Assembly: GCA_944326155.1 (NCBI GenBank) | Contig: CALVCV010000002.1 | Span: 68,514-116,805, forward strand | Direction: 5' to 3' | Length of the DNA stretch: 48,292 nucleotides | Origin: an uncultured Bacilli bacterium | GTDB lineage: Bacteria > Bacillota_I > Bacilli_A > ML615J-28 > CAG-313 | Part shown: one piece after another, positions 2 through 31,839 of the stretch | Layout of the letters: each line of letters begins with the position of its first letter | Position numbering within the stretch: position 1 is the first letter of the stretch | Position numbers and translations under genes: made by a program | The notes under the pieces: model-generated | Seen by the model: the letters and a program-made list of their open reading frames with translations, nothing else | What the model was told of the DNA's origin: nothing | Database searches by the model: none

Positions 2-1108
2 ACTAATACAGATATTGAATTGGCATCTCAAGGTAATAAGGATGCTATTGATAAAGTAAATGCATATTATGCAGTCCAAGATTATGTTGACCAAAATAAT
101 ATTAGTAGAGAAGACTTATTTGATAGTTCAAAATATACAAAAGAAGAATTACAAAAAAATATTAAAGGCATTTATGCTCTTCCAGAAAAACAAATATTTA
201 TGGTAATGTTTGTTCGTGATGATATTTTTGAAGAAAATGGTTGGACTGATTTAATACCAGAAACATGGGACGATGTAATTGATTTAGTAGCTGAATTACA
301 AACTCAACAACTTCAATTTTACCTACCTGTTAATGAAACAGGTGCAAATGCATTGAATCCTGTTTTTGTTTCTATGTTATATCAAAATGGTGGCGACTTA
401 TATGCCAATGATAATAAAGAAACTGGTCTTATGAGTGATGCCGCAATGCGTTCTTTCGAATATTGGACTGAATTTTATACTTTATATTCTTTCCCTAAAG
501 CAGCAAGTTTTGTAAATCGTTTCCGTTCAGGTGAAATGCCAATAGGAATTGCATATTATGAAACATATAATACATTAAGTGTATCAGCACCAGAAATTAA
601 AGGTAAATGGTCATTTCATTTGATTCCAGGTACATATAACGAAGAAACAGGCGAAATAGATTATACATCAACTGCTAGTGGTACTGGTGCTGTTATTATG
701 CAACAACCTGATGATGTATCTGCTTCTGTAAAACAATCCAAATATGATGCATCTTGGGAATTCTTAAAATGGTGGACAGGCGCTGAAACACAAGCACAAT
801 TTGGTCGCGAAATGGAAGGTATTTTAGGTTCAGCTGCGCGGCATGCTACAGCAAACGTTAAAGCATTCCAATCTCTTGCTTGGCCTCAAGAAGACTTAGA
901 CACTTTAATGTTACAATGGAGTAAAGTTCATGAAATGCCTCAAGTTGCAGGTAGTTATATTGTTGGTCGTGAAATTGAAAATGCATATCGTGAAGTAATC
1001 AATAATTACTACAATGCTCGTGAAACTTTAGTTGAATATTGTGGAAACATTAATGATGAAATCAATCGTAAACGTAAAGAATTTGATTTACCTACTGTAA
1101 ATGATTAA
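2..1108 (+). CDS. Sugar ABC transporter solute-binding protein (family 1), 5' truncated
   Basis: The frame is open to the left edge, so the start lies outside the window; the TTG at 20 is not a credible start. About 368 C-terminal residues are visible. They read as part of a family 1 extracellular sugar-binding protein: PETWDDVIDLVAEL, a QNGGDLYANDN loop, RFRSGEMPIGIAYYE, and the charged EINRKRKEF tail often seen at the end of this family. It would act outside the membrane and hand substrate to the permease pair at 1639-3811. The substrate cannot be read from sequence; the downstream wall-glycan genes suggest amino-sugar oligosaccharides, which is inference. The stop is 17 nt before the next gene, so they are co-transcribed. 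The family call is firm, the substrate unknown. Confidence 0.85.
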   Translation, partial: TNTDIELASQGNKDAIDKVNAYYAVQDYVDQNNISREDLFDSSKYTKEELQKNIKGIYALPEKQIFMVMFVRDDIFEENGWTDLIPETWDDVIDLVAELQTQQLQFYLPVNETGANALNPVFVSMLYQNGGDLYANDNKETGLMSDAAMRSFEYWTEFYTLYSFPKAASFVNRFRSGEMPIGIAYYETYNTLSVSAPEIKGKWSFHLIPGTYNEETGEIDYTSTASGTGAVIMQQPDDVSASVKQSKYDASWEFLKWWTGAETQAQFGREMEGILGSAARHATANVKAFQSLAWPQEDLDTLMLQWSKVHEMPQVAGSYIVGREIENAYREVINNYYNARETLVEYCGNINDEINRKRKEFDLPTVND

Positions 1109-1125
1109 TTAGAAAGGAGAAACAT

Positions 1126-1560
1126 ATGGGTTCAAAAATTGCCGTTATAGTAATGTTAATTATCACAGCATTGATGCTAGTTTATCTTCTTATCTTGGCA
1201 TTTACAGGTGGTAAAAAAGAAAAGCTTAATTTTAGAAGTAATTATCGTGCAAAAAGACAACAAGAAATTGATCGTGGAATTATAAGCCGTGAAGATCGTA
1301 AGAAAGAAAAAGAAGAACTTCGTCAAGTTTTAAAAGAAAAAAAAGCTGAACAAAAACGAAACGATGCTGAATATGATGCACAAGTTAAGCAAAATATTAA
1401 AGTTTACAAACAAGAATATCTAGAAACAAAAACAAAACTTGCACAAGTTAAAAAAGAGTATCTAGATGCTAAAGCAAAATTTGAAGTTTGGGCTAAAGAA
1501 AATCCTAATTTAGTTGTCGAAGATGATGAATTAAAACAAGCTCAAATTATGGAGGATTAA
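1126..1560 (+). CDS. Small membrane-anchored coiled-coil protein, function unknown
   Basis: This 144-residue protein has a good ribosome site (AAAGGAG) 8 nt before the ATG. One hydrophobic segment at about residues 5-27 is followed by a Lys/Glu-rich stretch, about residues 40-130, that should form a long helix or coiled coil. I do not recognise the family. With the first residues non-cytoplasmic and no cleavage site, the most likely topology is a single-pass protein with a charged cytoplasmic rod. It sits between the binding protein and its permeases, where no such subunit is standard, so it may be an accessory factor or scaffold of this transporter; that is inference from position only. Confidence 0.75.
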   Translation: MGSKIAVIVMLIITALMLVYLLILAFTGGKKEKLNFRSNYRAKRQQEIDRGIISREDRKKEKEELRQVLKEKKAEQKRNDAEYDAQVKQNIKVYKQEYLETKTKLAQVKKEYLDAKAKFEVWAKENPNLVVEDDELKQAQIMED

Positions 1561-1610
1561 AGAACAAAATGAAAAAAAATAAAATTAAAAAAACAATTTT
1601 GTTCTTTAAT
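1556..1610 (+). repeat. 15-bp perfect inverted repeat in the transporter operon
   Basis: The arms 1556-1570 and 1596-1610 are perfect reverse complements (15 bp, with GAAC/GTTC as the only G/C pairs), separated by a 25-nt A-rich loop. The left arm overlaps the stop of the coiled-coil gene. The stem is AT-rich and lacks a following T tract, so it is not a typical terminator. It may be a 3'-end stabiliser or partial attenuator that leaves more mRNA for the binding protein than for the permeases. Function is inferred. Confidence 0.5.
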
Positions 1611-1638
1611 AATTACTGGGAAGAAGGAGAAAATGTTT

Positions 1639-2781
1639 ATGACAGATAAAGATAAAAATATAGAACAAACTCAATCTAACCAAGAGCAAAATTTGCAAAA
1701 TGATGTACAAAATCAAAAAGTAATAAACTCAACTCCACTTGTAAAAAGTGAAATCCAACTTGAGTTTGAAGAAAAAGAAAAAGCTTACTTAGAAGCCTTA
1801 AAAGAAAATGAAACTGCAGGTTTAAAACTTAGAATAGAAAAAGATCGTGGTTCCTTATTTCGTAAAATTGATCGTTGGAGTAAACGTGGAAGTAGACTTC
1901 GCAGAGAAATTTTTGTTAAGCGACAATATTATTATTTGGTTGCCCCTTATACGATTTTATTCTTCATTTTTACCGTTGTTCCAGTATTAATGTCATTGGT
2001 ATTAAGTTTCACATACTTTAACTTACTAGAGTTTCCAACATTCATTGGCTGGGAAAATTATCGAGCATTATTCGTTGATGATAAAGTATTTATTATAGCT
2101 TTGAAAAATACTGCAATCTTAGCGGTTATTACAGGGCCAGTAAGTTACATTATGGCCTTTGTATTTGCTTGGCTGATAAATGAATTAAGGCCTCTACTAA
2201 GAAGTTTTATGACATTGGTATTCTATGCACCATCTATTTCTGGTAACGTATACTTAGTTTGGAAACTAATTTTTAGTAGTGATAACTACGGATATGCAAA
2301 CTCAATTTTAATGCAAATGAATATCATTCAAGAGCCAATCACTTGGTTACAAGATCCGGATTATATTATTTGGATTTTGATTATTGTTCAATTGTGGATG
2401 TCTCTTGGTGTAAGTTTCTTGTCATTTATTGCGGGCCTTCAAGGTGTTAACAGAGAACTTTATGAGGCTGGTGCTATTGATGGTATCAAAAGTAGATGGC
2501 AAGAGCTTTGGTATATTACTTTACCACAAATGAAATCGCAATTGATGTTCGGTGCTGTAATGCAAATTACATCAAGTTTAGCCATTGCGACAGTTTCCAT
2601 CAATATTGCTGGTTTTCCGTCCATTGAATACGCGGGTCATACTATTATTACCCACTTGATGGACTATGGTAATACAAGAATGGAAATGGGTTATGCTTCC
2701 GCAATCGCAACAATTCTATTTTTAATTATGATTATTGCTAATTTAGTAGTTAGAAAAATTTTAAGAAGGGTAGGTTCATAA
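1639..2781 (+). CDS. Sugar ABC transporter permease, MalF/LplB type
   Basis: This is an inner-membrane permease of the carbohydrate uptake-1 class, about 380 residues. The first ~95 residues are hydrophilic and charged, giving a longer cytoplasmic N-terminus than usual, followed by about six membrane segments starting with YYLVAPYTILFFIF. The coupling (EAA) loop EAGAIDGIKSRWQELWYITLP, near residue 275, docks on the ATPase. Two in-frame ATGs exist, at 1633 and 1639. The AAGGAG at 1624-1629 is only 3 nt from the first but 9 nt from the second, so I chose 1639. It pairs with the permease starting at 2783, 1 nt after its stop. Confidence 0.9.
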   Translation: MTDKDKNIEQTQSNQEQNLQNDVQNQKVINSTPLVKSEIQLEFEEKEKAYLEALKENETAGLKLRIEKDRGSLFRKIDRWSKRGSRLRREIFVKRQYYYLVAPYTILFFIFTVVPVLMSLVLSFTYFNLLEFPTFIGWENYRALFVDDKVFIIALKNTAILAVITGPVSYIMAFVFAWLINELRPLLRSFMTLVFYAPSISGNVYLVWKLIFSSDNYGYANSILMQMNIIQEPITWLQDPDYIIWILIIVQLWMSLGVSFLSFIAGLQGVNRELYEAGAIDGIKSRWQELWYITLPQMKSQLMFGAVMQITSSLAIATVSINIAGFPSIEYAGHTIITHLMDYGNTRMEMGYASAIATILFLIMIIANLVVRKILRRVGS

Positions 2782-2782
2782 T

Positions 2783-3811
2783 ATGGCAGAAGACAAAATT
2801 TTAATTGATGATGATGAAACCGTTGCTGGTGTTGAACTATCAAAAGAAGAAAAGAAACGTCTTAAACGCCAAGAAAAGAAACTTAAAAAATTTGGTTTAA
2901 AAGATGAATCAAAAATGGGAAAAATGGAGTTATTCTTCTATAAAATTGAAAAAAGAAGAAGGATAAAAAAGAAAAAGCGTGTCAGTAGAAGTATTGTAGG
3001 TGATATTTCCCTTTTCCTTCTACTTTGCTTATTTGGTGCATTTAGTGCTTATCCGCTAGTATATTCTTTTTGTGCAGCTTTTAAACCACTTGCTGAATTA
3101 TTTATTTATCCACCAAAATTGTTTTTTCAAAATCCAACACTTGACAATTTTAAAGATTTATCAATGTTAATGGAACAATCAATGGTTCCTTTCTCAAGAT
3201 ATTTTTTCAATACAATTTGGATTACTTTTGCTGGAACAGTTGGTCACGTTATTATTGCATCAATGGCTGCTTATCCACTTGCAAAGCATAAATTTCCTGG
3301 TTCAACTATTATTTTTTCAATGGTTGTTTACTCCTTGATGTTTGCTTCACAAGTTACAGCAACCCCTACATATATTATTTTTAGTCTTGCAGGATTAATT
3401 GATACACAACTTGCAATTATAGTACCTGCTTTTGCGTATACATTAGGATTATATTTAATGAAACAATTTATGCAAGATATTCCTACTGAACTAATTGAAT
3501 CAGCAAAAATAGATGGAGCAAATGAGTTTCAAATTTATTGGCGTATTGTAATGCCTCTTGTTAAACCAGCTTGGTTAACACTAATTATTTTGTTGTTCCA
3601 ACAACTTTGGAATAATGATGGTGGTTCATTTATCTATAGTGAACAATTAAAACCATTATCTTATTCATTAAATCAAATTGTTGCTGGTGGTGTAGCAAGA
3701 ACAGGAACTGCTTCAGCTGTTATGTTAATTATGATGATTGTGCCAATTACAGTGTTTGTGCTTTCTCAAAGTCAAATTATTGAAACAATGGCACACTCAG
3801 GTATGAAGTAG
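2783..3811 (+). CDS. Sugar ABC transporter permease, MalG type
   Basis: This is the second permease of the pair, 342 residues. It begins with about 70 very basic and acidic residues (KKRLKRQEKKLKK and similar), then about six membrane segments from GDISLFLLLCLFGAF onward. The coupling loop ESAKIDGANEFQIYWRIVMP lies at about residues 239-258 and is the standard ATPase contact. Its start is 1 nt after the previous stop, so translation is probably coupled. The charged N-terminus is longer than in classical MalG, as in its partner, suggesting both subunits carry extra cytoplasmic tails. Substrate unknown. Confidence 0.9.
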   Translation: MAEDKILIDDDETVAGVELSKEEKKRLKRQEKKLKKFGLKDESKMGKMELFFYKIEKRRRIKKKKRVSRSIVGDISLFLLLCLFGAFSAYPLVYSFCAAFKPLAELFIYPPKLFFQNPTLDNFKDLSMLMEQSMVPFSRYFFNTIWITFAGTVGHVIIASMAAYPLAKHKFPGSTIIFSMVVYSLMFASQVTATPTYIIFSLAGLIDTQLAIIVPAFAYTLGLYLMKQFMQDIPTELIESAKIDGANEFQIYWRIVMPLVKPAWLTLIILLFQQLWNNDGGSFIYSEQLKPLSYSLNQIVAGGVARTGTASAVMLIMMIVPITVFVLSQSQIIETMAHSGMK

Positions 3812-3823
3812 GAGGTATTACTG

Positions 3824-6800
3824 ATGAAGAAAAATACAAATTTAATAGGCAAAATTATTATTGTTATTTTACTAACATTAATGGTTTTTTCTCCTAATTT
3901 GTTAACTGTCAAAGCATCTAGTTATAATTATGACTTTTGGAAAAATGTTATTCCTTCAGCTGAAGGTTTAGCATATGGTGATACATATTATGGTGATAGT
4001 ATTAAAAATTTAGATGGATCTGAATTAGAAAATAAAATTACATATGATAGTTTAACTGATATGGCAACTTATTTGGATAATATTTATGTTCTTGATTCTA
4101 AAAAGAATACCAGTACCCAAATTTTACAAGAACAAACAACTGGTGGTTATCATTATCCAGAATTATCTGCTAATGGTGTTAGTACTATCTATATTTTAAA
4201 TCAAGATTTCCAATTAGTTGAAGCAATTAATGAGTTTAAGATTACTGATGAAGTAAAAGAAAAATTACAAAATTTTTATAATTTTTATTATGAAACTTAT
4301 CAAATAGTAAATGAAAGTTTAATTTCAAGAGAATTTATTAACTTCTATGCAAATGAAGGTGAAAAATATACGCTTACACTTCAAGCTGGAACAAATGAAA
4401 TTATAGTAACAGAATTTGTGTACGGTACATATACACCTTTGACTGATGGAACTGGATATTATACTTATGACAATAAACTTTTAGAGCTTGTAATAGATGG
4501 TAAAAAAATTGATCAAAAATTATGGAAATGGGAAGCTAGTACAACAATCGATGGTGCTGTTGAATATAAAATCGTTCTAGATAATAGTTTAGTTAAAAAT
4601 CAAGATACAACCATCGAAGCTGAAATACTAGTACCTTCAACAGTTGGAAAATCTCCATATTTACCATATTCTAAAGATCCTTCGCAAGCTGCGGTTCGTC
4701 TTAGCAATGCAGCAGGTATTACTGTGACAAAAGATGGCATGTATATTGCGGATTCGGATAATGCTAGAATACTTAGGGCAAATAAAAATCAAGATGGTGA
4801 GTGGGTTGTAGATGGTGTTTATTTAACACCAAATGATAATATTTTCTATCAAATGTCAAGTAATATTTCCATTTTGGAAGTAAGCGGTGTAACTTTATTT
4901 CAACCACAAAAAGTTGCTGTAGACCAAACAGGTAGATTATATTGTATCGCTCAAAATGTTTATGAAGGTATTATGGAATTTCATACATCAGGTGCCTTTA
5001 ATAGATTCTTAGGTAAGAATGAAGTTGTTGCTAATCCACTTAAGAAGTTCTGGACAAAGATTTTCTCTGAAACACAGATTGCTTCTCTTAACCTTGACTT
5101 GCCACCAGAGTTTACAAATATTGCAATGGATGAAAATGGATTCTTGTATGCAACATCTCACCCAGATGCTGATGCTACAACTAATGCTAACATGGTAAAA
5201 ATGATTAATACATCAGGTGTAGATATTATGAAACGTAATGGGTATGTTACACCAGATGGTGATGCTGTATATTTAACAACTTCTACTGAAGAAGGTGTTA
5301 TCATCGGCATGTCAAATCTTGTAGGTATTACAGTTAGCCGTAATGGTAATTTTACAATTGTCGATGAATTAAGAGGTCGTTTATTTACATATGATAACGA
5401 AGGTAATTTATTATATATAACGGGTGAACAACCTGCAGGTAATTCATCAAGTGGTAGTACAACTTTATCAAGCAGTATTATTGACCCAGTTGCGATTCGT
5501 TATTTCTATCGTGATAGTGGCTCTTTAGATGAAGAGGGTAATCCAATTGAAGAAGAAGTTTTGCTTGTCTTAGATACAGTATCTAAGAGTATCATTTTAT
5601 TTGAAACAACTGAATTTGGCCAAGCTGTAAATACCGCTACTGAATTATATCAAAAAGGTATTGTTGAAGATAAATATGCTTTAAATGCTAATGGTGAAAT
5701 CATTTTAGATGATAAAGGTGACCCAGTTATTGAACAATACGGAGCAGAACATTATTGGAATGAAGTTAAAAAAAGAGATGAGAATAATGCTTTAGCTAAT
5801 CTTGGTATTGGTAAAGCTTTATTAAGACGTGGTGAATATAAAGAAGCAATGGATTATTTTGAACTTGCTCATAGTGCAACATATTATTCAAAGGCATATT
5901 CAGAATATCGCGATGCCATTTTGTCAAAGAACTTTAGTTGGATTATGACAGCAGTTATTTTATTAGTTGTTGTTTGGATTGTTTTATCATATCGTAAATA
6001 CTTAAAGAAAAAGAATTTAACTCTAGCAGCGGCAGCTGCAATGAATGAAGAAAAAACTGCTATTTTAAGTGGAAAGGTTACTGCCTTACATCGTGAAGTA
6101 ACTAATCAAGATAATGATGAAAATACTATCGAAGATAGCGAACATGTAGCAGAAGAAGAAAAAAAGAAAAAAATCGATTGGTCTAAAGTTGTAAGTAAAA
6201 TTAAATACTTCTTTAAAGAAACAGTTGGTTATCCACTATATATTCTTACTCATCCTATTCAAGGGTTTACTGATTTTAAGATAGAGAAAAAAGGTAAGAT
6301 GTGGGTTGCAATTGTTATTCTACTTGGATATGTATTGATGGAAATAATTGGATATCAATATGAAGGAATTATTACTAATGCTAATAATCCACAAGACTTC
6401 AATAGTATTGAAATTTTAATCTATGGTGTACTTCCTCCTGCTGTACTTTCTATAGCAAACTGGAGTGTTACTACCCTATTAGATGGTAAAGGTAAGATGA
6501 AAGAAATCTTCATGATGATTTGTTATTCATTATTTCCTATTACCGTTCTTGGATTTTTAAATATTATTTTAAGTAACGTAATGACACTAGATGAAGCACA
6601 ATTTATTACATTAATTAATGTTGTTGGTTGGGTATTAACTGGTTTAATGGTATTTATGGGTCTTGTTGTTATTCATGAATATGGTGTTGGTAAAACAATA
6701 TGGTCAATCATTTTAACAATTGTTGCAACATTAATTATTGCCTTTATTGCGTTATTAGTATTTGATTTAACACAACAAATGTATGGATTTGTATATTCGT

Positions 6801-6832
6801 TATACAGAGAAATTACAACTCGTTATTTCTAG
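3824..6832 (+). CDS. YIP1-family membrane protein with NHL-like and TPR regions
   Basis: This 1002-residue protein has an N-terminal signal or anchor segment (about 9-31). A large exported region follows, with NHL/beta-propeller-like repeats at roughly 290-560 (ITVTKDGMYIADSDNARILR, VAVDQTGRLYCIAQ, ITVSRNGNFTIVDELRGRLF). A helical TPR-like stretch (ALANLGIGKALLRRGEYKEA) comes at about 655-690, then a membrane segment near 704-724, a charged linker, and a C-terminal Yip1-like domain (about 800-1002) with five hydrophobic segments. The C-terminus matches what I recall of YIP1 proteins encoded beside sugar ABC permeases and DUF5696 proteins in Paenibacillus-type clusters. The biochemical role is unknown; a sensor or assembly factor for the transporter is one guess. 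The start is supported by AGGAGG. Confidence 0.75.
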   Translation: MKKNTNLIGKIIIVILLTLMVFSPNLLTVKASSYNYDFWKNVIPSAEGLAYGDTYYGDSIKNLDGSELENKITYDSLTDMATYLDNIYVLDSKKNTSTQILQEQTTGGYHYPELSANGVSTIYILNQDFQLVEAINEFKITDEVKEKLQNFYNFYYETYQIVNESLISREFINFYANEGEKYTLTLQAGTNEIIVTEFVYGTYTPLTDGTGYYTYDNKLLELVIDGKKIDQKLWKWEASTTIDGAVEYKIVLDNSLVKNQDTTIEAEILVPSTVGKSPYLPYSKDPSQAAVRLSNAAGITVTKDGMYIADSDNARILRANKNQDGEWVVDGVYLTPNDNIFYQMSSNISILEVSGVTLFQPQKVAVDQTGRLYCIAQNVYEGIMEFHTSGAFNRFLGKNEVVANPLKKFWTKIFSETQIASLNLDLPPEFTNIAMDENGFLYATSHPDADATTNANMVKMINTSGVDIMKRNGYVTPDGDAVYLTTSTEEGVIIGMSNLVGITVSRNGNFTIVDELRGRLFTYDNEGNLLYITGEQPAGNSSSGSTTLSSSIIDPVAIRYFYRDSGSLDEEGNPIEEEVLLVLDTVSKSIILFETTEFGQAVNTATELYQKGIVEDKYALNANGEIILDDKGDPVIEQYGAEHYWNEVKKRDENNALANLGIGKALLRRGEYKEAMDYFELAHSATYYSKAYSEYRDAILSKNFSWIMTAVILLVVVWIVLSYRKYLKKKNLTLAAAAAMNEEKTAILSGKVTALHREVTNQDNDENTIEDSEHVAEEEKKKKIDWSKVVSKIKYFFKETVGYPLYILTHPIQGFTDFKIEKKGKMWVAIVILLGYVLMEIIGYQYEGIITNANNPQDFNSIEILIYGVLPPAVLSIANWSVTTLLDGKGKMKEIFMMICYSLFPITVLGFLNIILSNVMTLDEAQFITLINVVGWVLTGLMVFMGLVVIHEYGVGKTIWSIILTIVATLIIAFIALLVFDLTQQMYGFVYSLYREITTRYF

Positions 6833-6845
6833 GAGGTGAAAGAGG

Positions 6846-9800
6846 ATGAAAAAACCAATTACAATTTGGACATATTTAAAACGTTTTTTACTAATTATCA
6901 TTGCTCTTATCATAGTAATTGTGGTATCTGTTTACTTTCTAGCTACATATAAAGCATCAGGGATGAGTTTTAATAACGAATATCCTGATAACTATTGGGA
7001 CAATTTAGAAGAAAAAGGTTTTGTTGATTATGATTATGCAATTAATTTAAGAGATACATCAAATACTAGAAATCCTAGTTATGTTCCTCCATATAATGAA
7101 GATGATGATTTTGTAGATCAATTAAAAACTGCAAGATATGATGTCGAGTTAACGAATATATATAATAGAATTGTTGCATTACCTGAATATGCAAGTTATG
7201 CAAATAAAGTTTTATTCGAAGAAACTTATGAAGATTTAAGTAATAAATATCTTGATTATACTTGGAATAATTATTATGAAGATAATGTTACTAATAAAAA
7301 AGTGCTTTCTAATGATCGTTTTGATTTATATATTAATATGACAAATACCCAATTTCATCTTGATGAAAAAGATGAAAATGGTAATGTAATTCATACTTGG
7401 AATTCAAATCCAACCAATCCCGATTCGGCAAAAGGTATTAATATTATTCAACAATCATTATTAACTGTAAGCTTTGTAGATGGTAGTAAAACTTCTACTA
7501 AGACGCCTATTACTTATGACTCATATACGTATGGTACAGAGATATCAACAAACAAACAAAAATATCCTAGTTATAAAATTGGTGTGATTAATGATGAAAA
7601 TGGTAATCCATCAAAAGTACAAGTATATTACGCTCTTGAAGAAAAAGGTATTGACTATGACTGGTTTCCAAGGGAATTAACTAAAGAGCGATTACAAGAA
7701 TTATTTGATCGCTGTAATGCTAGCGTTGCTGCATATAAAGAAGCACACAATGGTGAAATGGAAAAAGATAGTCGAGGTTATGATATTGAAGGTATGGGTT
7801 TTGCTGCCGACCATGACAAATTAGGATTATCAAGCAGAGCAAAAACTTTATATAATCAAGTAATAGATAATGTTTTTAAATTAAATCCTGATGGTAATTC
7901 TTATCGAATTACTAACTATGAAAATATGAGTGATGTTGCAATCAGTAATTTATATCGTTTCTTTTATGAGTGGTGTAAATATACAGAAGAAGATTTAGCA
8001 TTAGATATGCAAGATACAGAGCATACAAATGTAAAACCAAAGATTGAAATCATTATTGAATATTCATTAAATGAAAATGGCTTGGAAGTATTAATTCCTG
8101 GTAATTCTGTGAAAACTAATACCAATGAATCTGGTGATGCATATATGGTTACAAATATTAGTGTTTTACCATATTTTACATCGGTTAAATCAGGAACTCA
8201 AGAAGGTTATATGGTAATTCCTGATGGAAGTGGAGCTGTAATGAATTTTGACAATGGTAAAACAAATTATACAGCTTACTCAAAACGTATTTATTCTACT
8301 GATTTATCATTTACAAGTTATACACTTACCACTTCAACAGATGATTTGATGTTTCCTATGTATGGATATCTTTTAACAGGAACTGAACCTACTGGTGTAT
8401 TAGTAGAAGTAACAGAAGGTGCTGCTCAAGTTAGATTATCAGCAGATACATCAAATCGTGCAGGGAACAGTTTTAATTATGCGAATTATTCCATTATTTT
8501 TAGAGAACAGCAAAGAGTTGTTATTGGTACAACACAGTATAATAGAACATCTACTACGCAATATACCGATCAAGCAGCTAGTGGTGATTATCGTTTTAAC
8601 TATAATTATTTAGACACTTCAAAATACGAAATAAATTACAGCGGATTAGCTAAATTTTATCGTGATTTATTACTTGAAAGAAGTCATACTTCATTAGACG
8701 TAAATGGTGATAAGACTACCAAAGCTGTATTAGATTTAGAAATTCTTGGTAGTTATTCTTATCGAGATAATTTCTTAGGAATTGGTTACACAGCTAAAGA
8801 TTCTCTAACGACTATTGATGAGTTACAAAGTATTATTAATCAGGTATTGGAATTTGATATTAGTTCCACTAATATCTATTATTATGGTTGGCGTAGCCAA
8901 GGATTAAAAAATGTATCATTTAAGAATATTAGTGTAAGTAGTGAAATTGGTGGTAAGAAAAAATTATTAGATTTAATCAATTCATATAATGACAAGAATG
9001 TAAATATTTATCCACAATTAGAATTTTTAGAATATCAAGATTTCCAGGAAAGTTTTGGTAGAAGTCATTACACAGCAAGAGATGTAAGTGGTTCTTATTC
9101 TACTAAATATCCATATGAATTAAATAGTAATGTATTTAATAAAAAGGCAGATGAAATTATGGTTTTATCTCCTGCATACTATTCAGCATTTGCAACTACT
9201 TTAGCAAAAGAGTATAGTAAAGTATTAGGAATTAATACATTGGCATTAACAGGTCTTGGGTCAAAGTTATCAGGAAATTATCGTAGAAATAAAACAGTAT
9301 TTAAATCAAGTGCTGTTGAAGAACAAATTAAATCTTTGGAAATTTTATATGAAAACGGTATTAACAAATTAGCTCTTGAAGCACCATATTTCTATGCTTT
9401 AGAATATGCTTCTAGTGCATACAATGTACCATCTCAATCAACACAATATGAAATTCTTGATTATTCAATTCCTTTCTATCAATTGGTTGTCAATGGTTTA
9501 TTTGATTATAGTGGTGAATCTATCAATGCTAATGTTGAAGAAGGTTTTCAAGAACATTTAATGAAATGTATTGAAACTGGATCTAATCCAATCTTTACAT
9601 TTACTTATGATGATTCCGCAAAATTATTATTAACAGATTACAATAGTTACTATTACACCCTTTATACAAGATGGATGGATGATGTTGAAACAATTTGTGA
9701 TACACTAAATAGTCTTAATATTTATGCAGGTAGACTAGCAAAACATGAAAGACTTGATGAAAATGTTTATAAAGTTACGTATATAAACGAAAATGATATG

Positions 9801-9893
9801 ACAAAAATTGAAATTGTTCTTAATTATCAAAGAACAAGTTGGACTTATGAAGGCGGTATTCTTATTCCTGCTAAGTCTTATAAGGTTGTATAG
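6846..9893 (+). CDS. DUF5696-type exported protein, possible glycan-active enzyme
   Basis: This 1015-residue protein has one N-terminal membrane segment (about residues 10-33) and the rest predicted outside. The region around residues 455-490, containing GYMVIPDGSGAVMNFDNG and later TAYSKRIYSTDLSF, is the hallmark I associate with DUF5696 proteins, which sit with YIP1 proteins and sugar permeases in Bacillota. The C-terminal half alternates short strands and helices (VNIYPQLEFLEYQDF, INKLALEAPYFYALEYA) in a way that could be a TIM barrel, so a glycoside hydrolase-like role is possible but not shown. I cannot point to catalytic residues. AGGAGG precedes the ATG; it is the fifth of a co-transcribed series. 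Confidence 0.75.
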   Translation: MKKPITIWTYLKRFLLIIIALIIVIVVSVYFLATYKASGMSFNNEYPDNYWDNLEEKGFVDYDYAINLRDTSNTRNPSYVPPYNEDDDFVDQLKTARYDVELTNIYNRIVALPEYASYANKVLFEETYEDLSNKYLDYTWNNYYEDNVTNKKVLSNDRFDLYINMTNTQFHLDEKDENGNVIHTWNSNPTNPDSAKGINIIQQSLLTVSFVDGSKTSTKTPITYDSYTYGTEISTNKQKYPSYKIGVINDENGNPSKVQVYYALEEKGIDYDWFPRELTKERLQELFDRCNASVAAYKEAHNGEMEKDSRGYDIEGMGFAADHDKLGLSSRAKTLYNQVIDNVFKLNPDGNSYRITNYENMSDVAISNLYRFFYEWCKYTEEDLALDMQDTEHTNVKPKIEIIIEYSLNENGLEVLIPGNSVKTNTNESGDAYMVTNISVLPYFTSVKSGTQEGYMVIPDGSGAVMNFDNGKTNYTAYSKRIYSTDLSFTSYTLTTSTDDLMFPMYGYLLTGTEPTGVLVEVTEGAAQVRLSADTSNRAGNSFNYANYSIIFREQQRVVIGTTQYNRTSTTQYTDQAASGDYRFNYNYLDTSKYEINYSGLAKFYRDLLLERSHTSLDVNGDKTTKAVLDLEILGSYSYRDNFLGIGYTAKDSLTTIDELQSIINQVLEFDISSTNIYYYGWRSQGLKNVSFKNISVSSEIGGKKKLLDLINSYNDKNVNIYPQLEFLEYQDFQESFGRSHYTARDVSGSYSTKYPYELNSNVFNKKADEIMVLSPAYYSAFATTLAKEYSKVLGINTLALTGLGSKLSGNYRRNKTVFKSSAVEEQIKSLEILYENGINKLALEAPYFYALEYASSAYNVPSQSTQYEILDYSIPFYQLVVNGLFDYSGESINANVEEGFQEHLMKCIETGSNPIFTFTYDDSAKLLLTDYNSYYYTLYTRWMDDVETICDTLNSLNIYAGRLAKHERLDENVYKVTYINENDMTKIEIVLNYQRTSWTYEGGILIPAKSYKVV

Positions 9894-9902
9894 GAGGTTA
9901 AA

Positions 9903-10982
9903 ATGGAAAACAATAACGTAAAAGTCAAAAAATCTTTTAAAACTCAATTACAACCTATAGCAAAAGGTTTTAAAAAAGTAATAGGATTTATTATAAAAAA
10001 TTGGTTCTTTGTTCTTTTTCCTTGTAGATTATTCAAAGAATTAATTTATGATAAGATGCGCTATGAAAAACAAAAACTGTTTATTTCTTGGCTATTTTTA
10101 GCTCCTACACTTTTAGGATTCATCTTATTCTTTGCTTATCCTTTAGTAATGTCACTTTTATATTCATTTAGTTCTGTAGAACCAAATGGTACATTTCACT
10201 TTTCCGAATTTTTCGCTAAAGTAGGAACCCAATATGACTATACACAAGTTATAAGTACAGATATCTTAAATAACTATAAATATGCTTTAAGAGTAAATGC
10301 TGATTTTCCTGTAAGTTTGTGGAATACTTCTCTTAATACAGTTATTGACACAGCTGTTATTACAATCTTTAGTTTATTACTTGCTGTAATGTTAAATGGT
10401 AAATTTAAAGGTCGTGCTTTTGTCAGAGCAATTTTCTTTTTGCCAGTAGTATTTAACTCTGAAGCAATTACTGCAGCGCTTGCTGCCGCAGAAGGTGTAG
10501 ATGCTGTTTTAAACTCATCTGGATCTGAAGCATTAACACAATTATTTGACCTTGAACAGTTTATGCAAGGAATTGGTGTGCCTGTACAACTTGTTACTTT
10601 CTTATCGGGTATTACATCAACAATCTACCGAACAATTTCATATTCTGGTATTCAAATATTGATTTTTTTAACTGCTATTCAATCAGTGCCTAAACATTTA
10701 TATGAGGCTGCAACGATTGAAGGAGCAACAGGTTATGAACAATTTTGGAAAATTACATTACCTATGGTTTCACCAATGATTTTAACTGTTGTTGTATATA
10801 CAATTGTCGACTCATTCTTAAGATCAGAAATTGGTGATGTAATGGATACAGTTTATAACAATAATGAGTATGGTTATTATGCCGCAATGTCGTGGTTGTA
10901 CATATTAGCATCGTTACTCATTATGGGAATAATAGTAGGAATTTTATCAAAGGTGGTATTCTATTATGATGACAAGAAATAA
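9903..10982 (+). CDS. Second sugar ABC transporter permease, MalF type
   Basis: This 359-residue permease starts a second permease pair in the same operon. A basic N-terminal tail of about 55 residues precedes membrane segments starting near LFISWLFLAPTLLGFILFF. The coupling loop EAATIEGATGYEQFWKITLP is at about residues 268-287. The extracytoplasmic loop after the first membrane segment is long (about residues 95-140), as in MalF-type subunits. AGGAGG lies 5 nt upstream of the ATG. It overlaps the next permease by 17 nt, a sign of coupled translation. Substrate unknown; possibly a different oligosaccharide from the first pair, or subunits of one larger system. Confidence 0.9.
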   Translation: MENNNVKVKKSFKTQLQPIAKGFKKVIGFIIKNWFFVLFPCRLFKELIYDKMRYEKQKLFISWLFLAPTLLGFILFFAYPLVMSLLYSFSSVEPNGTFHFSEFFAKVGTQYDYTQVISTDILNNYKYALRVNADFPVSLWNTSLNTVIDTAVITIFSLLLAVMLNGKFKGRAFVRAIFFLPVVFNSEAITAALAAAEGVDAVLNSSGSEALTQLFDLEQFMQGIGVPVQLVTFLSGITSTIYRTISYSGIQILIFLTAIQSVPKHLYEAATIEGATGYEQFWKITLPMVSPMILTVVVYTIVDSFLRSEIGDVMDTVYNNNEYGYYAAMSWLYILASLLIMGIIVGILSKVVFYYDDKK

Positions 10983-12165
10983 GAAAAAAGAATTAAAAAA
11001 ACAACATGTTCAAGAATTAGAAAATAATACACCTATAGTAGAAGAGCCAAAGGAAGATAAAAAAACAAAAGAACCTACTTGGAGTCATATTAAGCGTTTG
11101 AGTAAGGAAACTTATACTGAAATTGTATCTGATTTAAAAAATCCAGTAAAAAGAGCTGTTATGCGAAGAAAAACTTCTATGCGATTGGTATCAATTTTAA
11201 GAGGCTTTATTTTTCTTGGATTATCATTTGTCATTGTATTTCCAATTTTCCAAGAAGTTTCACTTGCTTTTAGACATCCAATTGATTTAAATAATAAGCT
11301 TGTAAATTGGATTCCAGAAACATTTAGTTTATTCAATTTTGATTTATCAAAAGTATTGTTAGATTATTGGCGAGGTTTATGGTGTAATTTAAAAGTTTCA
11401 ACCATATCGACTATTTGTCAGTTATTTGCTACATCACTTGCTGGATATGCTTTTTCAAGATTAAAATTTAGAGGTAGTAACTTAATATTCTGGTTAATTA
11501 TGTTAACATTAATTGTTCCACCTCAAGCTATTTCGTTAGCAAGAACTTTCTTTTTAGATGATTTTGATATTTTAAGATTTAATTTTTTTGGTTTATGGGA
11601 CAATCCTGGTTTATTTGAAAGTTTATTAGGACATGGGTTACGCCTAAAAGGTGAAGGGAAAGATATCGTTTTCTATATCACTTCATTAACTGGACAAGGA
11701 ATTAGAGCAGCCTTATTTATCTATTTATTTAGACAATTCTTTAGAGGCATTCCAATTGAACTAGAAGAATCGGCCCAAATTGATGGTGCTGGTGTTGTTA
11801 GAACATTTTGGAGCGTAATGCTACCAAATGCAAGAGGTGTTATTACTACTGTTGCTTTATTCGCTTTTGTATGGCAATGGAATGATACATACTATACTGG
11901 AATGTATCAAATTAGTGGTGAAACATTTCCAATGTTGACAAGAAAACTAATTTCTATGAGTGAAAGAATAGCAGGTATTATTAGTCAACCACATTACCAA
12001 GATTTCTTAGATCAAGTAGGTGAAGGTATTGCAAAAAATCCATTATTCGTTCAAGTTATCCTCAATACTGCAGCTTTAATGCTAATGGCTCCATTAATTA
12101 TTGGATATTTATTTGTTCAAAGATTATTTATTGAAGGTGTAGAACGATCTGGTATTGTAGGTTAA
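10966..12165 (+). CDS. Second sugar ABC transporter permease, MalG type
   Basis: This is the partner of the preceding permease, 399 residues, beginning inside it with ATGATG at 10966 behind AAGGTGG. About 80 charged residues precede the first membrane segment (GFIFLGLSFVIVFPIF). The coupling loop ESAQIDGAGVVRTFWSVMLP is at about residues 268-287. The 399-residue length exceeds a typical MalG because of the N-terminal tail and a long loop near residues 195-235. As with the first pair there is no ATP-binding subunit nearby, so a shared MsmX/UgpC-type ATPase encoded elsewhere must energise it (inference from how this family works). Confidence 0.9.
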   Translation: MMTRNKKKELKKQHVQELENNTPIVEEPKEDKKTKEPTWSHIKRLSKETYTEIVSDLKNPVKRAVMRRKTSMRLVSILRGFIFLGLSFVIVFPIFQEVSLAFRHPIDLNNKLVNWIPETFSLFNFDLSKVLLDYWRGLWCNLKVSTISTICQLFATSLAGYAFSRLKFRGSNLIFWLIMLTLIVPPQAISLARTFFLDDFDILRFNFFGLWDNPGLFESLLGHGLRLKGEGKDIVFYITSLTGQGIRAALFIYLFRQFFRGIPIELEESAQIDGAGVVRTFWSVMLPNARGVITTVALFAFVWQWNDTYYTGMYQISGETFPMLTRKLISMSERIAGIISQPHYQDFLDQVGEGIAKNPLFVQVILNTAALMLMAPLIIGYLFVQRLFIEGVERSGIVG

Positions 12166-12192: not shown

Positions 12193-12897
12193 ATGAAATC
12201 TGATAGAATTATGCGTAGCAAAATTTATCGATTTTTGGATTATGTATTGCGTTTGATTATCTTAAACGCACTGATTATAATTCCCTCATTCTCTTTCTTT
12301 ATTATTTTTGCTACTTTAAATGAAAATAACGATGATCCATTCATATATTTAACTTTAATACCTTTATTGTTATGGTTTTTTCCAAGTATTGTTGCTTGTA
12401 CAGAAGTAATAAGACAATATGAAACTAATGATACAAATACGATTTTCAAAGATTTTTTCAAAAGTTTGAAAAGGCACTATGTAAAAACTCTTTTATTATC
12501 TATTTTGATTACTATCATAATTATTATTTTTTATAATAGTCTAAACTTTTTTATAACATATATGAGTCAAGGATTTATTTATATCTTAGGTCTTTTATTT
12601 TCTATACCATTTATGGTTGCTTTTTTTATGATAGTAATACATATGATTTTAGTAATGGCTTATTTTAAAAATTTATTAATAAAAGAAATTATAAAGTTAG
12701 CTTGTATTATGGCATTTAAAGATGTATTAAATAGTATATTAATGGTGATTATTATTGTAGTATTTTTAAGTTTAGATGTTGCTTTGTATTTTGTTATGGC
12801 TATTGTAGGAATTTCACTTCCTATTTATTTAATTGTAAAGTTGTCGTATAAAAAATATATAAAAATCTATAGAAAGGTAGAAACGAATAATGAATAA
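12193..12897 (+). CDS. YesL-like (DUF624) membrane protein
   Basis: This 234-residue integral membrane protein has about five hydrophobic segments. Its N-terminal pattern (short basic leader, then RFLDYVLRLIILNALIIIPS) resembles YesL/DUF624 proteins, which are encoded with carbohydrate ABC permeases in many Bacillota and whose job is unknown. It follows the permease by 27 nt with AAAGGAG upstream and overlaps the next gene by 8 nt. A second, more typical member is at 26903, heading the wall-sugar operon, so both clusters carry one. Family assignment rests on topology and a few motifs, so it is moderately sure. Confidence 0.65.
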   Translation: MKSDRIMRSKIYRFLDYVLRLIILNALIIIPSFSFFIIFATLNENNDDPFIYLTLIPLLLWFFPSIVACTEVIRQYETNDTNTIFKDFFKSLKRHYVKTLLLSILITIIIIIFYNSLNFFITYMSQGFIYILGLLFSIPFMVAFFMIVIHMILVMAYFKNLLIKEIIKLACIMAFKDVLNSILMVIIIVVFLSLDVALYFVMAIVGISLPIYLIVKLSYKKYIKIYRKVETNNE

Positions 12898-15388
12898 AAA
12901 AATTATTTCCAAAATACTATCAGTTTTATTGGTAGTTGCTATAATGATGGGAATTGTGAAAACTTCTAGTGCAAAACTAGGTGATTCAGGGATTATTCGA
13001 ATTGAAGGTGAAGAAACTATAACTGAATTATTAGGTGGTGCAAAATTACATCAACAAGATATTAGTGCTTCAATCGATGGTAAAAATGATTATTTTTATA
13101 AATATGACTCACAATATATAGAAACTTTACCGAATAGTGAAGGAATAAAAATTGTATCTTGGAGTTATCGTAATCCTGAAAAATGGCAAATGGCTGGTGT
13201 AAGTGATATTGCGGCTAACTTTGAAGAATTAAATCCTGGATGGTTAGTTGTTGGTGGTACAAATGCTGATTTTTTTAATATAAATGGTAATGGTCAAATG
13301 ACTGACAATGCAATGGAAAATGGTGAAATGATCAACCCATCCCATACCACTTCTAATCCTTGGTGGCGAGGTATTTTAGGTTTTACTGAAGATAATGAGT
13401 TAATGGCTGGTGTTCCTGATGTAACAAATTATTATACAGTTCACATATATGAAGATGCGAAGGCTGAAAATGAAGAGTCAAATATTAGAATCACAGCAGT
13501 TAATCCAGCAACAATTAGCACAACGGGAGTTACGATCTTAACAAAAGATAACCTAAATCCATATGATTTAACTGGATATAAAGTTGCTGTAGGAAAATAT
13601 GATATTGTTCGTCAAACAACCAATGGTGAAATTTTTGTAAAAGGATATATTAAAGAAATCCGTGATGGTAAAGCAAATGAACGCCCACTTGATTTCTATA
13701 ATGATGGTACTGAAAATTTAGATTTAAGAGAATTTTTCTTAATATCAAAAGATGGTTCATTAGATAGTCTTGAAGTTGGTCAATATGTAAAAGTTCAAAA
13801 AGATTATATGAATGAATGGACAGTTGTTCAAAATAGTGCAAGTTACTATTGGAAAATATTAGATAAAGACGAAGGTGTTTTATTCTATGGTCATTCAGAC
13901 CCTGAGAAAAAGCAAGAAATTATGAATAAATATAATTATGGTGGAAGTAATTTTGAGTATATTACCGCAAGAAAATCAAGATGTCTATTTGGTGTTAAAG
14001 CAGATGGTTCCTATGTAATGACAGTTATTGGTGGTACAACATCAAGTGGTATGACACTATCAGAAGCTGCTTTCTTTATGAAAGAAATTGGATGTATAGA
14101 GGCTTGGGATTTTGATGGTGGTGGTTCTGCAACTTTAATTGCTAGAGATGAATATGGTACAATTCAAACGATTAATACACCAAGTGATGCTGGAGATGGT
14201 ACTGAAAGAAGAGTTGGTAATGCTTTATTAATGGTAGTAAGAGATCCTGGTTTTGCTTTTTCAATTGCTGATTCAACTCCTACTACTATAAAATTAACTA
14301 AAAAAACTGATGAGGTATTTAATGAAATGACAAACATCACGATTTCAATTAATGGTCAAACGATAAATGTAGCAGATGATCAAGAAATAGTTGAAATTGG
14401 TGGTTTAGACGCTGGTCAACAATATTTGGCTAATGTAAGTTTTACATATGAAGGTGAAAATTATTCATCTGCTATTCCTGTTCAAACTAAAGAATATGTG
14501 GAAAGAGTGTATATTGTACCTGATTCACATGGTTTTAATATTTCAATTGAACAAAGTGATGATATATTAGAATTAACAAACATTGTCTTTGATGTTGAGG
14601 GCAAAGAATACCACATGGATAATGTAACTGAATTTAGTATTGATGGATTAGTAAAGGGTCGTGAATACACGATTTCTTATGTTTGTACAATTACAAACAA
14701 ATTAACAGGTATATCTTTCACAAGAGAAGTTCCTGAAGCAATATACAAGACATTAGAATATGAATTGCCACAAATTATTACATTTGAAGAAAATCGCAAA
14801 ACATCAAATAAAGTATCTATTGAATATAAATACGAAGATACTGATAATTTAATTGATGAAGTATATATTTTAATGAATGGTGAAAAAAACATCTTAGATC
14901 GCGAAAGTGGTATTATTACCTTTGAAAATTTAGATTTTATTGCTAATAAGTATGTATTTGAACTTGTTATTATGTATAAAGACTTAGAAGGTAGAATTTA
15001 CATGATTGAATCAGATGAACTTGTATATGAAAAAGAAGAGTGTCAACATGAATATGATAACGATTGTGATGAAGACTGTAATATTTGTGGGGAGGTTAGA
15101 GTAGTTACACATAACTGGGTTGAAGCAAGTTGTGAGCAAGCAAAACATTGTGCAGATTGTGGTGTAACAGAAGGAGAAGCCCTAGGACATGATTGGGAAG
15201 CAGCAACGTATGATGCACCAAAGACATGTAAAAGATGTGGGGCAACCGAAGGAGAACCACTTTCAAGACCAAGTGAACCAAACGAAGAAAAAGGATGTAA
15301 GAAATGCAGTAAAAATAGCATTTTAAGTATTATTTCAATGATTGGTTTATTTAGTGGTGCTATTTTAATTTTAAGAAGAAAGAAATAA
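12890..15388 (+). CDS. Secreted NAGPA-type phosphodiester glycosidase with Cys-rich C-terminal anchor (paralogue 1)
   Basis: This 832-residue protein has a signal peptide (about 1-28, cleavage near SSA-K). The phosphodiester glycosidase (NAGPA/DUF2233-like) domain spans roughly residues 60-455: WLVVGGTNADFF, FGVKADGSYVM, and the hallmark DFDGGGSATLI with Asp409, then RRVGNALLMV. In mammals this family removes GlcNAc from GlcNAc-1-phospho-6-mannose. Two or three Ig/Fn3-like strand regions follow (about 460-715). Next comes a Cys/His-rich region with CxxCG pairs (about 718-800), then GCKKC, one membrane segment (about 809-827) and RRKK. It should be displayed on the outer face of the membrane. 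No LPXTG motif. The last 262 bp before the tail codons are identical to those of the next gene. Confidence 0.85.
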   Translation: MNKKIISKILSVLLVVAIMMGIVKTSSAKLGDSGIIRIEGEETITELLGGAKLHQQDISASIDGKNDYFYKYDSQYIETLPNSEGIKIVSWSYRNPEKWQMAGVSDIAANFEELNPGWLVVGGTNADFFNINGNGQMTDNAMENGEMINPSHTTSNPWWRGILGFTEDNELMAGVPDVTNYYTVHIYEDAKAENEESNIRITAVNPATISTTGVTILTKDNLNPYDLTGYKVAVGKYDIVRQTTNGEIFVKGYIKEIRDGKANERPLDFYNDGTENLDLREFFLISKDGSLDSLEVGQYVKVQKDYMNEWTVVQNSASYYWKILDKDEGVLFYGHSDPEKKQEIMNKYNYGGSNFEYITARKSRCLFGVKADGSYVMTVIGGTTSSGMTLSEAAFFMKEIGCIEAWDFDGGGSATLIARDEYGTIQTINTPSDAGDGTERRVGNALLMVVRDPGFAFSIADSTPTTIKLTKKTDEVFNEMTNITISINGQTINVADDQEIVEIGGLDAGQQYLANVSFTYEGENYSSAIPVQTKEYVERVYIVPDSHGFNISIEQSDDILELTNIVFDVEGKEYHMDNVTEFSIDGLVKGREYTISYVCTITNKLTGISFTREVPEAIYKTLEYELPQIITFEENRKTSNKVSIEYKYEDTDNLIDEVYILMNGEKNILDRESGIITFENLDFIANKYVFELVIMYKDLEGRIYMIESDELVYEKEECQHEYDNDCDEDCNICGEVRVVTHNWVEASCEQAKHCADCGVTEGEALGHDWEAATYDAPKTCKRCGATEGEPLSRPSEPNEEKGCKKCSKNSILSIISMIGLFSGAILILRRKK
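15116..15377 (+). repeat. 262-bp perfect direct repeat, copy 1
   Basis: By direct comparison this stretch is base-for-base identical to 17615-17876 (offset 2499), with no mismatch seen. It encodes the second half of the Cys-rich region and the C-terminal membrane anchor of the first NAGPA-type protein, in the same reading frame as in copy 2. The flanking coding sequences are much more diverged. Confidence 0.95.
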
Positions 15389-17891: not shown

Positions 17892-19451
17892 ATGAAAAGT
17901 ATTAAAGATATGACATTGAAAGAGAAGGTAGGCCAAATGATTGGCCTTGCCTTCTCTGGTGATAAATATAGCCCTGAATTAAAAATGCAAGTTGAAGATA
18001 TTGAAGCAGGACTAATCATTTATTTTAAAGATAATTGTGTATCACCAAAACAAATATTTGATTTAAATAAAGAAATCATTAAACATGCTAAAATACCACC
18101 ATTTATTGCTTTAGACCAAGAAGGTGGAATGGTAGCTAGAGTTACTGAAGGTATTGTTCAATCCCCTGGTGCTATGGCAATCAGTGCTACACAAAATACC
18201 AAAAATGCGTATAATTTAGCAAAGAATATGGGTATTGAATTGCGTGATTTGGGATTTAATTTTAATTTTGCTCCTGTTGGCGATGTTAATAACAATCCCA
18301 AAAATCCGGTTATCAACGTTCGATCTTATTCAGAAGATCCTAAAATTGTAACTGATTATATGGTTGAGGCTGTTAGAGGATATCATGACGCCGGTTTAAT
18401 GACATCAGTTAAACACTTTCCTGGTCATGGTGATACAGCTGTAGATTCTCATGTTGGGCTTCCTGTTGTAGATTTTGATAAGGAGAGATTAGATAAAGTA
18501 GAACTCTTACCATACAAAAAAGTTGTTGAATTGAACTTACCAGGTATTATGGCAAGCCACATTCTATATACAAAATACGATGATAAATTACCAACAACTT
18601 TATCAAATAAAATAATTACAGGTTTACTTCGTAATGAAATGGGTTTTAAAGGATTAGTTGTTACTGATTCACTTACAATGTCAGCTGTTTTTGATAATTT
18701 TAGTATTGAAGAAATTGTTTATTATGGATTTAATTCTGGCTGTGATATTTTATTGTTATGCGGTGCAAGAAATATTAAAATGCAAAAAGAGTTTGCAGAA
18801 ACGGCTTTAAGACTTGCTGAAGAAGGGAAAATACCGCTTAGCATGATAGACAATTCTGTTGAAAGAATTTTAAAATATAAAGCCCTATATCAAGTAGGTC
18901 AAATGGCTGATAGCTTTGATGATATTAAAGGTGATTTAGAAGAACCTAGTCGTGTAAAATTAGCTGAAAAAGTTGCAGAAGATAGTATTACCTTATTGAA
19001 AAACAAAAATAATTTATTACCTATAACTAAAAAAGATAAAACATTAGTGGTTTTTCCAAAAATAAAAGTTGTTACTTTAGTTGAAAATGATGATAATACT
19101 TTAAGTTGTTTAGCAGACTACATGCCTTTTGCGGTAGATAAACACTATATCTCAATTAGTCCAACAAAAGATGAACAAAAAGATTTACTAGAAAAAGTAA
19201 CTCAATATGATAAAGTTATTTATTGTAGTTACAATGCTAATTTCAATGCATCACAAGCTGATTTAATTAATAAAATAGATAAAAACAAAATTATTGTAGT
19301 TGCTGTTAGAACACCTTATGATATTAATGTATTAGATGTTCCAACCTATATTTGTGCTTATGAGGCAAGTGTTCTAAGCTTCAAAGCTCTAGCAAAATAT
19401 TTAACAGGTCAAATTGATGCAAAAGGTATTTTACCTATTAGTGTCAAATAA
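17892..19451 (+). CDS. nagZ: GH3 beta-N-acetylglucosaminidase NagZ, cytoplasmic
   Basis: This 519-residue GH3 enzyme removes GlcNAc from GlcNAc-MurNAc fragments. Visible motifs are ALDQEGGMVARV, the NagZ-specific loop KHFPGHGDTAVDSH at residues 174-187 with the Asp185-His187 dyad used as acid/base in Bacillus NagZ, and the nucleophile in VVTDSLTMS (Asp259). Residues from about 350 form a second alpha/beta domain, as in Gram-positive NagZ and unlike the single-domain E. coli enzyme. There is no signal peptide, so it should work on imported fragments. It starts 4 nt after the previous stop with no clear ribosome site, suggesting coupled translation. Confidence 0.93.
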   Translation: MKSIKDMTLKEKVGQMIGLAFSGDKYSPELKMQVEDIEAGLIIYFKDNCVSPKQIFDLNKEIIKHAKIPPFIALDQEGGMVARVTEGIVQSPGAMAISATQNTKNAYNLAKNMGIELRDLGFNFNFAPVGDVNNNPKNPVINVRSYSEDPKIVTDYMVEAVRGYHDAGLMTSVKHFPGHGDTAVDSHVGLPVVDFDKERLDKVELLPYKKVVELNLPGIMASHILYTKYDDKLPTTLSNKIITGLLRNEMGFKGLVVTDSLTMSAVFDNFSIEEIVYYGFNSGCDILLLCGARNIKMQKEFAETALRLAEEGKIPLSMIDNSVERILKYKALYQVGQMADSFDDIKGDLEEPSRVKLAEKVAEDSITLLKNKNNLLPITKKDKTLVVFPKIKVVTLVENDDNTLSCLADYMPFAVDKHYISISPTKDEQKDLLEKVTQYDKVIYCSYNANFNASQADLINKIDKNKIIVVAVRTPYDINVLDVPTYICAYEASVLSFKALAKYLTGQIDAKGILPISVK

Positions 19452-26872: not shown

Positions 26873-26902
26873 ATAAAGTAATAAGAATTGAGGAAGACAA
26901 AT

Positions 26903-30690: not shown

Positions 30691-30704
30691 ATAAAGGTAG
30701 GGAT

Positions 30705-31835: not shown

Positions 31836-31839
31836 GATT

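Follow-up and report, generated by a model that had tools for sequence, protein, structure and literature searches.

Bacillota of the gut and soil are generally portrayed as taking up short oligosaccharides via simple ATP-binding cassette (ABC) transporters, and in Bacillus subtilis muropeptides are rescued by NamZ-NagZ-AmiE, MurP and MurQ along a phosphotransferase route. For Acholeplasma laidlawii, the passages of Kuhaudomlarp et al. (2019; PMC6484121) bearing on it describe a cluster of a GH161 gene, two permeases, GH16 and GH3, without a solute-binding protein (SBP). The locus considered here lies in 48,292 nucleotides of an uncultured Bacilli bacterium (assembly GCA_944326155.1, contig CALVCV010000002.1, positions 68,514 to 116,805; this whole stretch is called the window) and contains a module of seven genes: a giant SBP, a first permease pair (A1, B1), a protein with an NHL propeller, tetratricopeptide repeats (TPR) and a Yip1 domain, a DUF5696 protein, and a second permease pair (A2, B2). 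The module is strongly conserved and is a variant of CUT1-type ABC import that is apparently undescribed; within the openly licensed literature searched, no paper names DUF5696, and none combines a YIP1 family protein, an ABC transporter permease and NHL. The cluster probably encodes a single CUT1-type importer of several subunits for long linear glycans, with the DUF5696 and NHL/Yip1 proteins as membrane-anchored capture and docking subunits, a reading to which we assign a probability of about 0.62.

Conservation was assessed in 86 loci chosen solely by a DUF5696 match, with about 20 kb read around each; those from related genomes are not independent of one another. The order giant SBP-A1-B1-NHL/TPR/Yip1-DUF5696-A2-B2 is complete in 75 of the 86; the remaining 11 have A2 and B2 fused in an otherwise complete module (four loci), run off contig ends (four) or contain antisense frames from the open reading frame caller (three). 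Median gaps between core genes range from -11 to +8 bp. PF18952 (DUF5696) exceeds its cut-off in 41 of 60 related genomes and in 55 of 392 sampled from the phylum; among the 60 relatives, NHL/Yip1 and DUF5696 occur together in 40 and are both missing from 18, and the two exceptions have short or fragmentary contigs at that place. The identical order is annotated in records of Butyrivibrio fibrisolvens (Clostridia) and Paenibacillus cellulosilyticus; deeper relatives were sought in viral contigs, and none were found there. A first-pass annotation of the window had placed the two large proteins in a permease neighborhood and linked this association with Paenibacillus-type genomes; both statements are borne out by these loci and records.

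The giant SBP gene begins 2.36 kb before the window; in full (L003:6152-9622) it encodes a lipoprotein of 1156 amino acids with the lipobox LTSC and, as in CUT1 importers, an SBP domain, at residues 798-1057 (SBP_bac_8, 50.4 bits for the full protein). A profile of the N-terminal regions of giant SBPs (n = 39) matches CBM35-bearing proteins, for example cycloisomaltooligosaccharide glucanotransferase (1.7e-10), and further along coiled coils. All four window permeases match PF00528 and, like most of their homologs, have the EAA loop (EAA-G motif), the contact site for the ATPase of CUT1 importers; B2 resembles SugB, AlgM2 and MalG in sequence. Candidate partner ATPases of the OB_MalK type are encoded elsewhere in the organism's own genome, and a UgpC ATPase gene adjoins the module in the Paenibacillus record. 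Since the SBP and the EAA loops argue for import, an exporter function was rejected. The gene list of the first-pass annotation holds in families and sizes (Pfam: SBP_bac_8, four BPD_transp_1, Yip1, a borderline NHL, DUF5696 and DUF624), and all its genes lie on the + strand, with two corrections: its binding protein is incomplete, truncated at the edge of the window, and its "coiled-coil protein" was ruled out as a separate subunit. The latter product (1126-1560) is homologous to the N-terminus of relatives' A1, with 63% identity to residues 4-133 of A1 in L127 and 51% to A1 in L004 (blastp), and is fused in both; in the window, an in-frame TAA and a new ribosome-binding site part this 144-residue segment from the rest of the permease.

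The NHL/Yip1 profile matches NHL propellers (PknD and the designed "Pizza" proteins) and TPRs in the PDB; this part is followed by a transmembrane segment and then the Yip1 membrane domain, which at 45.2 bits exceeds the Pfam gathering cut-off of 28.6, with NHL borderline at 20.6 against 20. Such a domain composition would point to a scaffold or docking role, and no catalytic function is suggested. A different division of labor has its own evidence: each permease pair has its own EAA loops, a small second SBP occurs in 58 of the 86 loci, and A2 and B2 are fused into one protein of 617-638 amino acids in L067, L085, L137 and L142 (the two that were checked each have two permease domains), so that A2 and B2 appear to pair with each other. 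These features would suit two independent ABC importers within one operon and without a super-complex, A1B1 with the giant SBP taking long chains and A2B2 with the small SBP or DUF5696 taking short ones. However, wherever the pairs occur in the surveyed, DUF5696-selected loci, DUF5696 and NHL/Yip1 accompany them, and a small SBP is missing from the 20 kb read in many amino-sugar loci; two separate importers are a tentative possibility.

The survey of accompanying catabolic genes that the first-pass annotation had proposed separates three substrate classes, inferred from flanking genes (names such as NagZ or MurK, where used outside the window, stand for phmmer similarity to the window proteins): 33 of the 86 loci are of an amino-sugar class, 12 of them with genes for N-acetylmuramic acid (MurNAc); 19 have the beta-1,3-glucan neighbors GH16, GH3 and GH161, the latter a protein of 1039 residues with a match to GH161 phosphorylase at 5e-222; and 12 have the beta-1,2-glucan neighbors GH144 and SOGP. 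On the DUF5696 tree (FastTree) the three classes require 3 changes, compared to a minimum of 2 and a shuffled mean of 26.5, and 3-5 changes suffice on the trees of the remaining six subunits vs. shuffled means of 21.7-26.1; in genomes with several modules, each copy groups with same-class copies of other genomes and not with its genome-mates. Because the subunit trees split by class and the copies group by class, the module appears to diverge as a unit with its substrate. Gene content follows the same division: DUF624 genes are found in 23 of 32 amino-sugar loci vs. 0 of 31 glucan loci, and Yip1 is fused in all scorable glucan loci and a separate gene in 28 amino-sugar loci; the split form, with an NHL-TPR gene and a Yip1 gene, is the one in most loci of the amino-sugar class. 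N-terminal hydrophobic segments, judged by a hydropathy threshold only, are absent from NamZ (0/11), NagZ (0/22) and GH161 (0/5), and present in 15 of 24 GH16 and 11 of 17 GH144 proteins, whose second copies are cytosolic. The EAA loops of the four permeases, the ATPase candidates elsewhere, and lipoprotein GH16 or GH144 beside cytosolic enzymes together argue for the import of long chains. On a Paenibacillus cellulosilyticus plasmid (L156), the module precedes genes for several LLM-class flavin oxidoreductases and for two small SBPs, a substrate context that is unexplained.

The window copy is part of a larger amino-sugar locus, extending from upstream GHL10 and GH20 genes to murQ at 32754. 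As in peptidoglycan salvage loci, MurQ is accompanied by MurNAc-releasing enzymes, here NamZ and MupG; in a related clade, NamZ, NagZ, MurK and MurQ are encoded contiguously, directly after the module (L092, L095, L098, L100, L102). The window NamZ and NagZ lack export signals, so that oligosaccharides are probably imported; if cytosolic, the two enzymes could dismantle a peptide-free chain of N-acetylglucosamine (GlcNAc) and MurNAc of any length. The NagZ-like protein scores 190.9 in the NCBIfam beta-N-acetylhexosaminidase family, slightly under the cut-off of 207. The GHL10 family of the upstream genes is also matched in Escherichia coli, whose DigH is a GHL10 protein. DigH breaks down denuded glycan strands (PMC12288456). 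The genome itself (1.44 Mb) encodes a transpeptidase and a ligase resembling MurC (287 bits, under the cut-off of 335), so that the organism probably makes peptidoglycan. Judged by its neighbors, this copy probably takes up oligosaccharides of the cell wall (GlcNAc-MurNAc). Its substrate might instead be a GlcNAc glycan of another kind (chitin, mucin or a phosphodiester-linked amino sugar), as the NAGPA genes are the most constant neighbors within the close family, and GH20 and NagB are not specific for peptidoglycan; yet NamZ, MupG, AnmK and MurQ within the same 33 kb, together with the NamZ-NagZ-MurK-MurQ arrangement of the related clade, point to MurNAc, and a substrate other than peptidoglycan strands is unlikely. 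The amino-sugar hint of the first-pass annotation is strengthened for this copy by the same four genes; it does not extend to the module in general, because other loci pair it with enzymes for beta-1,3-glucan (GH16, GH161, GH3) or beta-1,2-glucan (GH144, SOGP).

In the PDB, the DUF5696 profile matches the GH129-like DagB (4e-12), NagBb (6e-6) and the GH101 enzyme EngBF (8e-5); against seven GH129 homologs it aligns across the protein (hhalign, E = 6e-15). These homologs were drawn from weak DUF5696 matches as a stand-in for PF11308 (GH129), a search for which yielded no match in the phylum and was uninformative. The acid/base glutamate of GH129 is E478 in the NagBb chain. The catalytic aspartate corresponds to D435 of NagBb and D486 of DagB (PMC5698469). 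At the aspartate column the window protein has Thr802, and 17 of 66 DUF5696 members have Asp; at the acid/base column Glu is found in 6 of 66, and this column or its neighbors are acidic in 11. The simplest reading is a barrel that would bind glycan without cleaving it; since its single hydrophobic segment is N-terminal, the protein is probably anchored outside the membrane. The clear GH129/GH101 homology, the acid/base glutamate of the window protein and L004, and an aspartate at or next to the nucleophile column in many members would be compatible with an active membrane-anchored glycosidase with non-canonical residues, which trims oligosaccharides before import. This alternative is improbable: both sites are acidic in only 4 of 66 members whereas all seven active-type homologs retain both (D and EE), the module is usually accompanied by other, typical glycosidases, and one family would have to cut GlcNAc-MurNAc, beta-1,3-glucan and beta-1,2-glucan. 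Where the first-pass annotation offered "extracellular receptors or processing enzymes", a receptor fits DUF5696 better, in view of the loss of the GH129 catalytic pair. Complete catalytic residues occur in GH129-type proteins of one family of the class (L143-L149), which are similar to Bifidobacterium NagBb at 1.4e-223. That the NHL/Yip1 and DUF5696 proteins are sensors reporting transport to regulators, or assembly factors inserting or stabilizing the permeases, would suit their membrane anchoring, the propeller and TPR scaffold domains and the two-component genes adjoining the Butyrivibrio locus, but is very unlikely, as a two-component gene occurs in few other loci among the flanking genes examined, and as DUF5696 diverges by substrate class as sharply as the SBP does, which fits substrate contact.

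An importer of long glycans with capture and docking subunits could work as follows. The polymer would first be shortened by an endo-enzyme that is surface-bound or exported (GHL10/NAGPA probably in this locus, a lipoprotein GH16 or GH144 where the module serves glucans); the lipid-anchored giant SBP would catch chains with its CBM35-like domains on a coiled-coil stalk and load its SBP domain; the DUF5696 barrel, of GH129/GH101 type without the catalytic pair, and the NHL/TPR/Yip1 protein would act outside the cytoplasm as a receptor and as a docking scaffold that links the SBP to the permeases; A1B1 and A2B2 would carry the chain into the cytosol, powered by a shared MsmX/UgpC-type ATPase encoded elsewhere; and cytosolic exo-enzymes would finish it, with NagZ and NamZ here taking turns before MurQ, kinases and NagB act. 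The stronger version, a single large complex in which two permease cores, the propeller/TPR/Yip1 scaffold and the pseudo-glycosidase receptor thread long polysaccharide chains into the cytosol, is doubtful. We infer the physical complex, glycan binding by DUF5696, the roles of the two permease pairs and peptidoglycan glycan as the substrate here. As a caveat, several observations weigh against the proposed importer: conservation of an operon indicates a functional unit and not a physical complex; 22 of the 86 loci received no class, and the classes derive from neighbors only; host relatedness could explain part of the class clustering on the trees; the nucleophile column or its neighboring position is acidic in 42 of 66 DUF5696 members, and Glu845, which aligns with the acid/base column, may allow residual or unusual catalysis by the window protein; and AlphaFold models were left unused at mean pLDDT (predicted local distance difference test) values of 34.5 for DUF5696 (three sequences) and 34.6 for NHL/Yip1 (two sequences).

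Table 1. Genes of the module and of the surrounding amino-sugar locus in the window.
Feature	Position	Strand	Evidence or remark
Giant solute-binding lipoprotein, C-terminal 368 aa (SBP_bac_8)	2..1108	+	gene start outside window
Transmembrane and coiled-coil protein, 144 aa; detached N-terminal segment of permease A1	1126..1560	+	blastp
Permease A1, MalF/UgpA-like, EAA loop present	1633..2781	+	PF00528 55.9 bits
Permease B1, MalG/UgpE-like, EAA loop	2783..3811	+	PF00528 46.8 bits
NHL propeller/TPR/transmembrane/Yip1 protein, 1002 aa	3824..6832	+	Yip1 45.2 bits
DUF5696 protein, 1015 aa, N-terminal transmembrane anchor, GH129/GH101-like by profile	6846..9893	+	DUF5696 424 bits
Permease A2, EAA loop	9903..10982	+	PF00528 29.2 bits
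Permease B2	10966..12165	+	PF00528 31.1 bits
DUF624 (YesL/MusI-like) membrane protein, typical of amino-sugar subtype	12193..12897	+	PF04854 31.2 bits
NAGPA phosphodiester glycosidase 1, exported, C-terminal anchor	12890..15388	+	PF09992 74 bits
NAGPA phosphodiester glycosidase 2	15416..17887	+	PF09992 99.9 bits
NagZ-like GH3 beta-N-acetylhexosaminidase, no export signal	17892..19451	+	PF00933 275 bits
NagB glucosamine-6-phosphate deaminase	19470..20192	+	TIGR00502 293.5 bits, cut-off 236.9
Second, smaller SBP-like lipoprotein with InlB-type repeats	24514..26760	+	Flg_new; phmmer links to small SBPs elsewhere
Second DUF624 membrane protein	26888..27604	+	PF04854 34.3 bits
NamZ exo-beta-N-acetylmuramidase, no export signal	27567..28751	+	NamZ_N 280 bits, NamZ_C 154 bits
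MupG 6-phospho-N-acetylmuramidase	28755..29780	+	MupG_N 181.5 bits
BadF-type amino-sugar kinase (MurK/NagK-like), interrupted frame	29784..30479	+	PF01869 50.6 bits
AnmK anhydro-MurNAc kinase	30705..31835	+	NF007142 443 bits, cut-off 435
MurQ MurNAc-6-phosphate etherase	31780..32754	+	TIGR00274 352.9 bits, cut-off 302

Several neighboring genes have features of their own (Table 1). The 330-nucleotide tails of the two NAGPA genes (15056-15385 and 17555-17884) are 95% identical, encode CxxC-type repeats and a C-terminal membrane anchor, and give rise to spurious minus-strand open reading frames; the upstream GHL10b gene (L002:14000-14349) carries the same protein tail, probably a surface-anchor domain that these genes share through gene conversion. 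Beside NagB, an exported 1025-residue protein (20401-23478) has a coiled coil, a C-terminal anchor and no Pfam match; its homologs follow NagB in L128, L129 and L138. The C-terminal part of the smaller SBP-like lipoprotein has no Pfam SBP match, and the two DUF624 proteins, at 25.4 and 48.8 bits, do not reach the MusI_fam cut-off of 160 (NCBIfam). The BadF-type kinase gene (29784-30704) yields 231 residues, with the rest of the domain continuing in the +1 frame; it is either a pseudogene or an assembly error in an A-rich run. An ordinary T-box leader (100.4 bits; 38024-38229, minus strand) lies upstream of a tryptophanyl-tRNA synthetase-like gene (36986-37984), and promoter and terminator scans gave sites no more numerous than in shuffled sequence.

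Compared to described systems, the module shares with the CUT1 importers MalEFGK2, SugABC and the alginate transporter AlgM1M2SS an SBP, permeases with EAA loops and, presumably, a separately encoded MsmX/UgpC-type ATPase; it differs from these in its second permease pair, in the giant size and CBM35-like domains of its SBP, and in two large additional subunits that are never missing. DUF5696 aligns over most of its length with the GH129/GH101 glycosidases NagBb (5wzn), DagB (5opq) and EngBF; in contrast to them it does not conserve the nucleophile and acid/base residues among its members, is membrane-anchored and always stands in a transporter operon. With B. subtilis muropeptide rescue, the window locus has in common NamZ, NagZ, MurQ and amino-sugar kinase functions, but its NamZ and NagZ lack export signals, and the ABC module would replace the phosphotransferase route. 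The A. laidlawii GH161 cluster resembles the A2B2 portion of a module for beta-1,3-glucan; the relevant passages (PMC6484121) mention no upstream SBP, A1B1, NHL/Yip1 or DUF5696 genes, and we infer that the cluster may be such a module, which offers an explanation for seemingly incomplete ABC transporters beside GH161 phosphorylases. Genomes with several copies of the conserved seven-gene module, each for its own substrate, suggest an apparatus dedicated to long glycans; DUF5696 and bacterial NHL/Yip1 proteins thereby gain a concrete, testable function, and the subunit clade would permit prediction of the substrate. The logic of surface endo-enzyme, glycan capture, oligosaccharide import and exo-digestion inside is analogous to that of Bacteroidetes SusCD loci, without implying membership, whereas the module uses ABC permeases at a single membrane, and no TonB-dependent receptor was seen among the annotated window genes, although no search was aimed at one; if the module does form a single-complex importer, it would be the single-membrane counterpart of the SusCD system.

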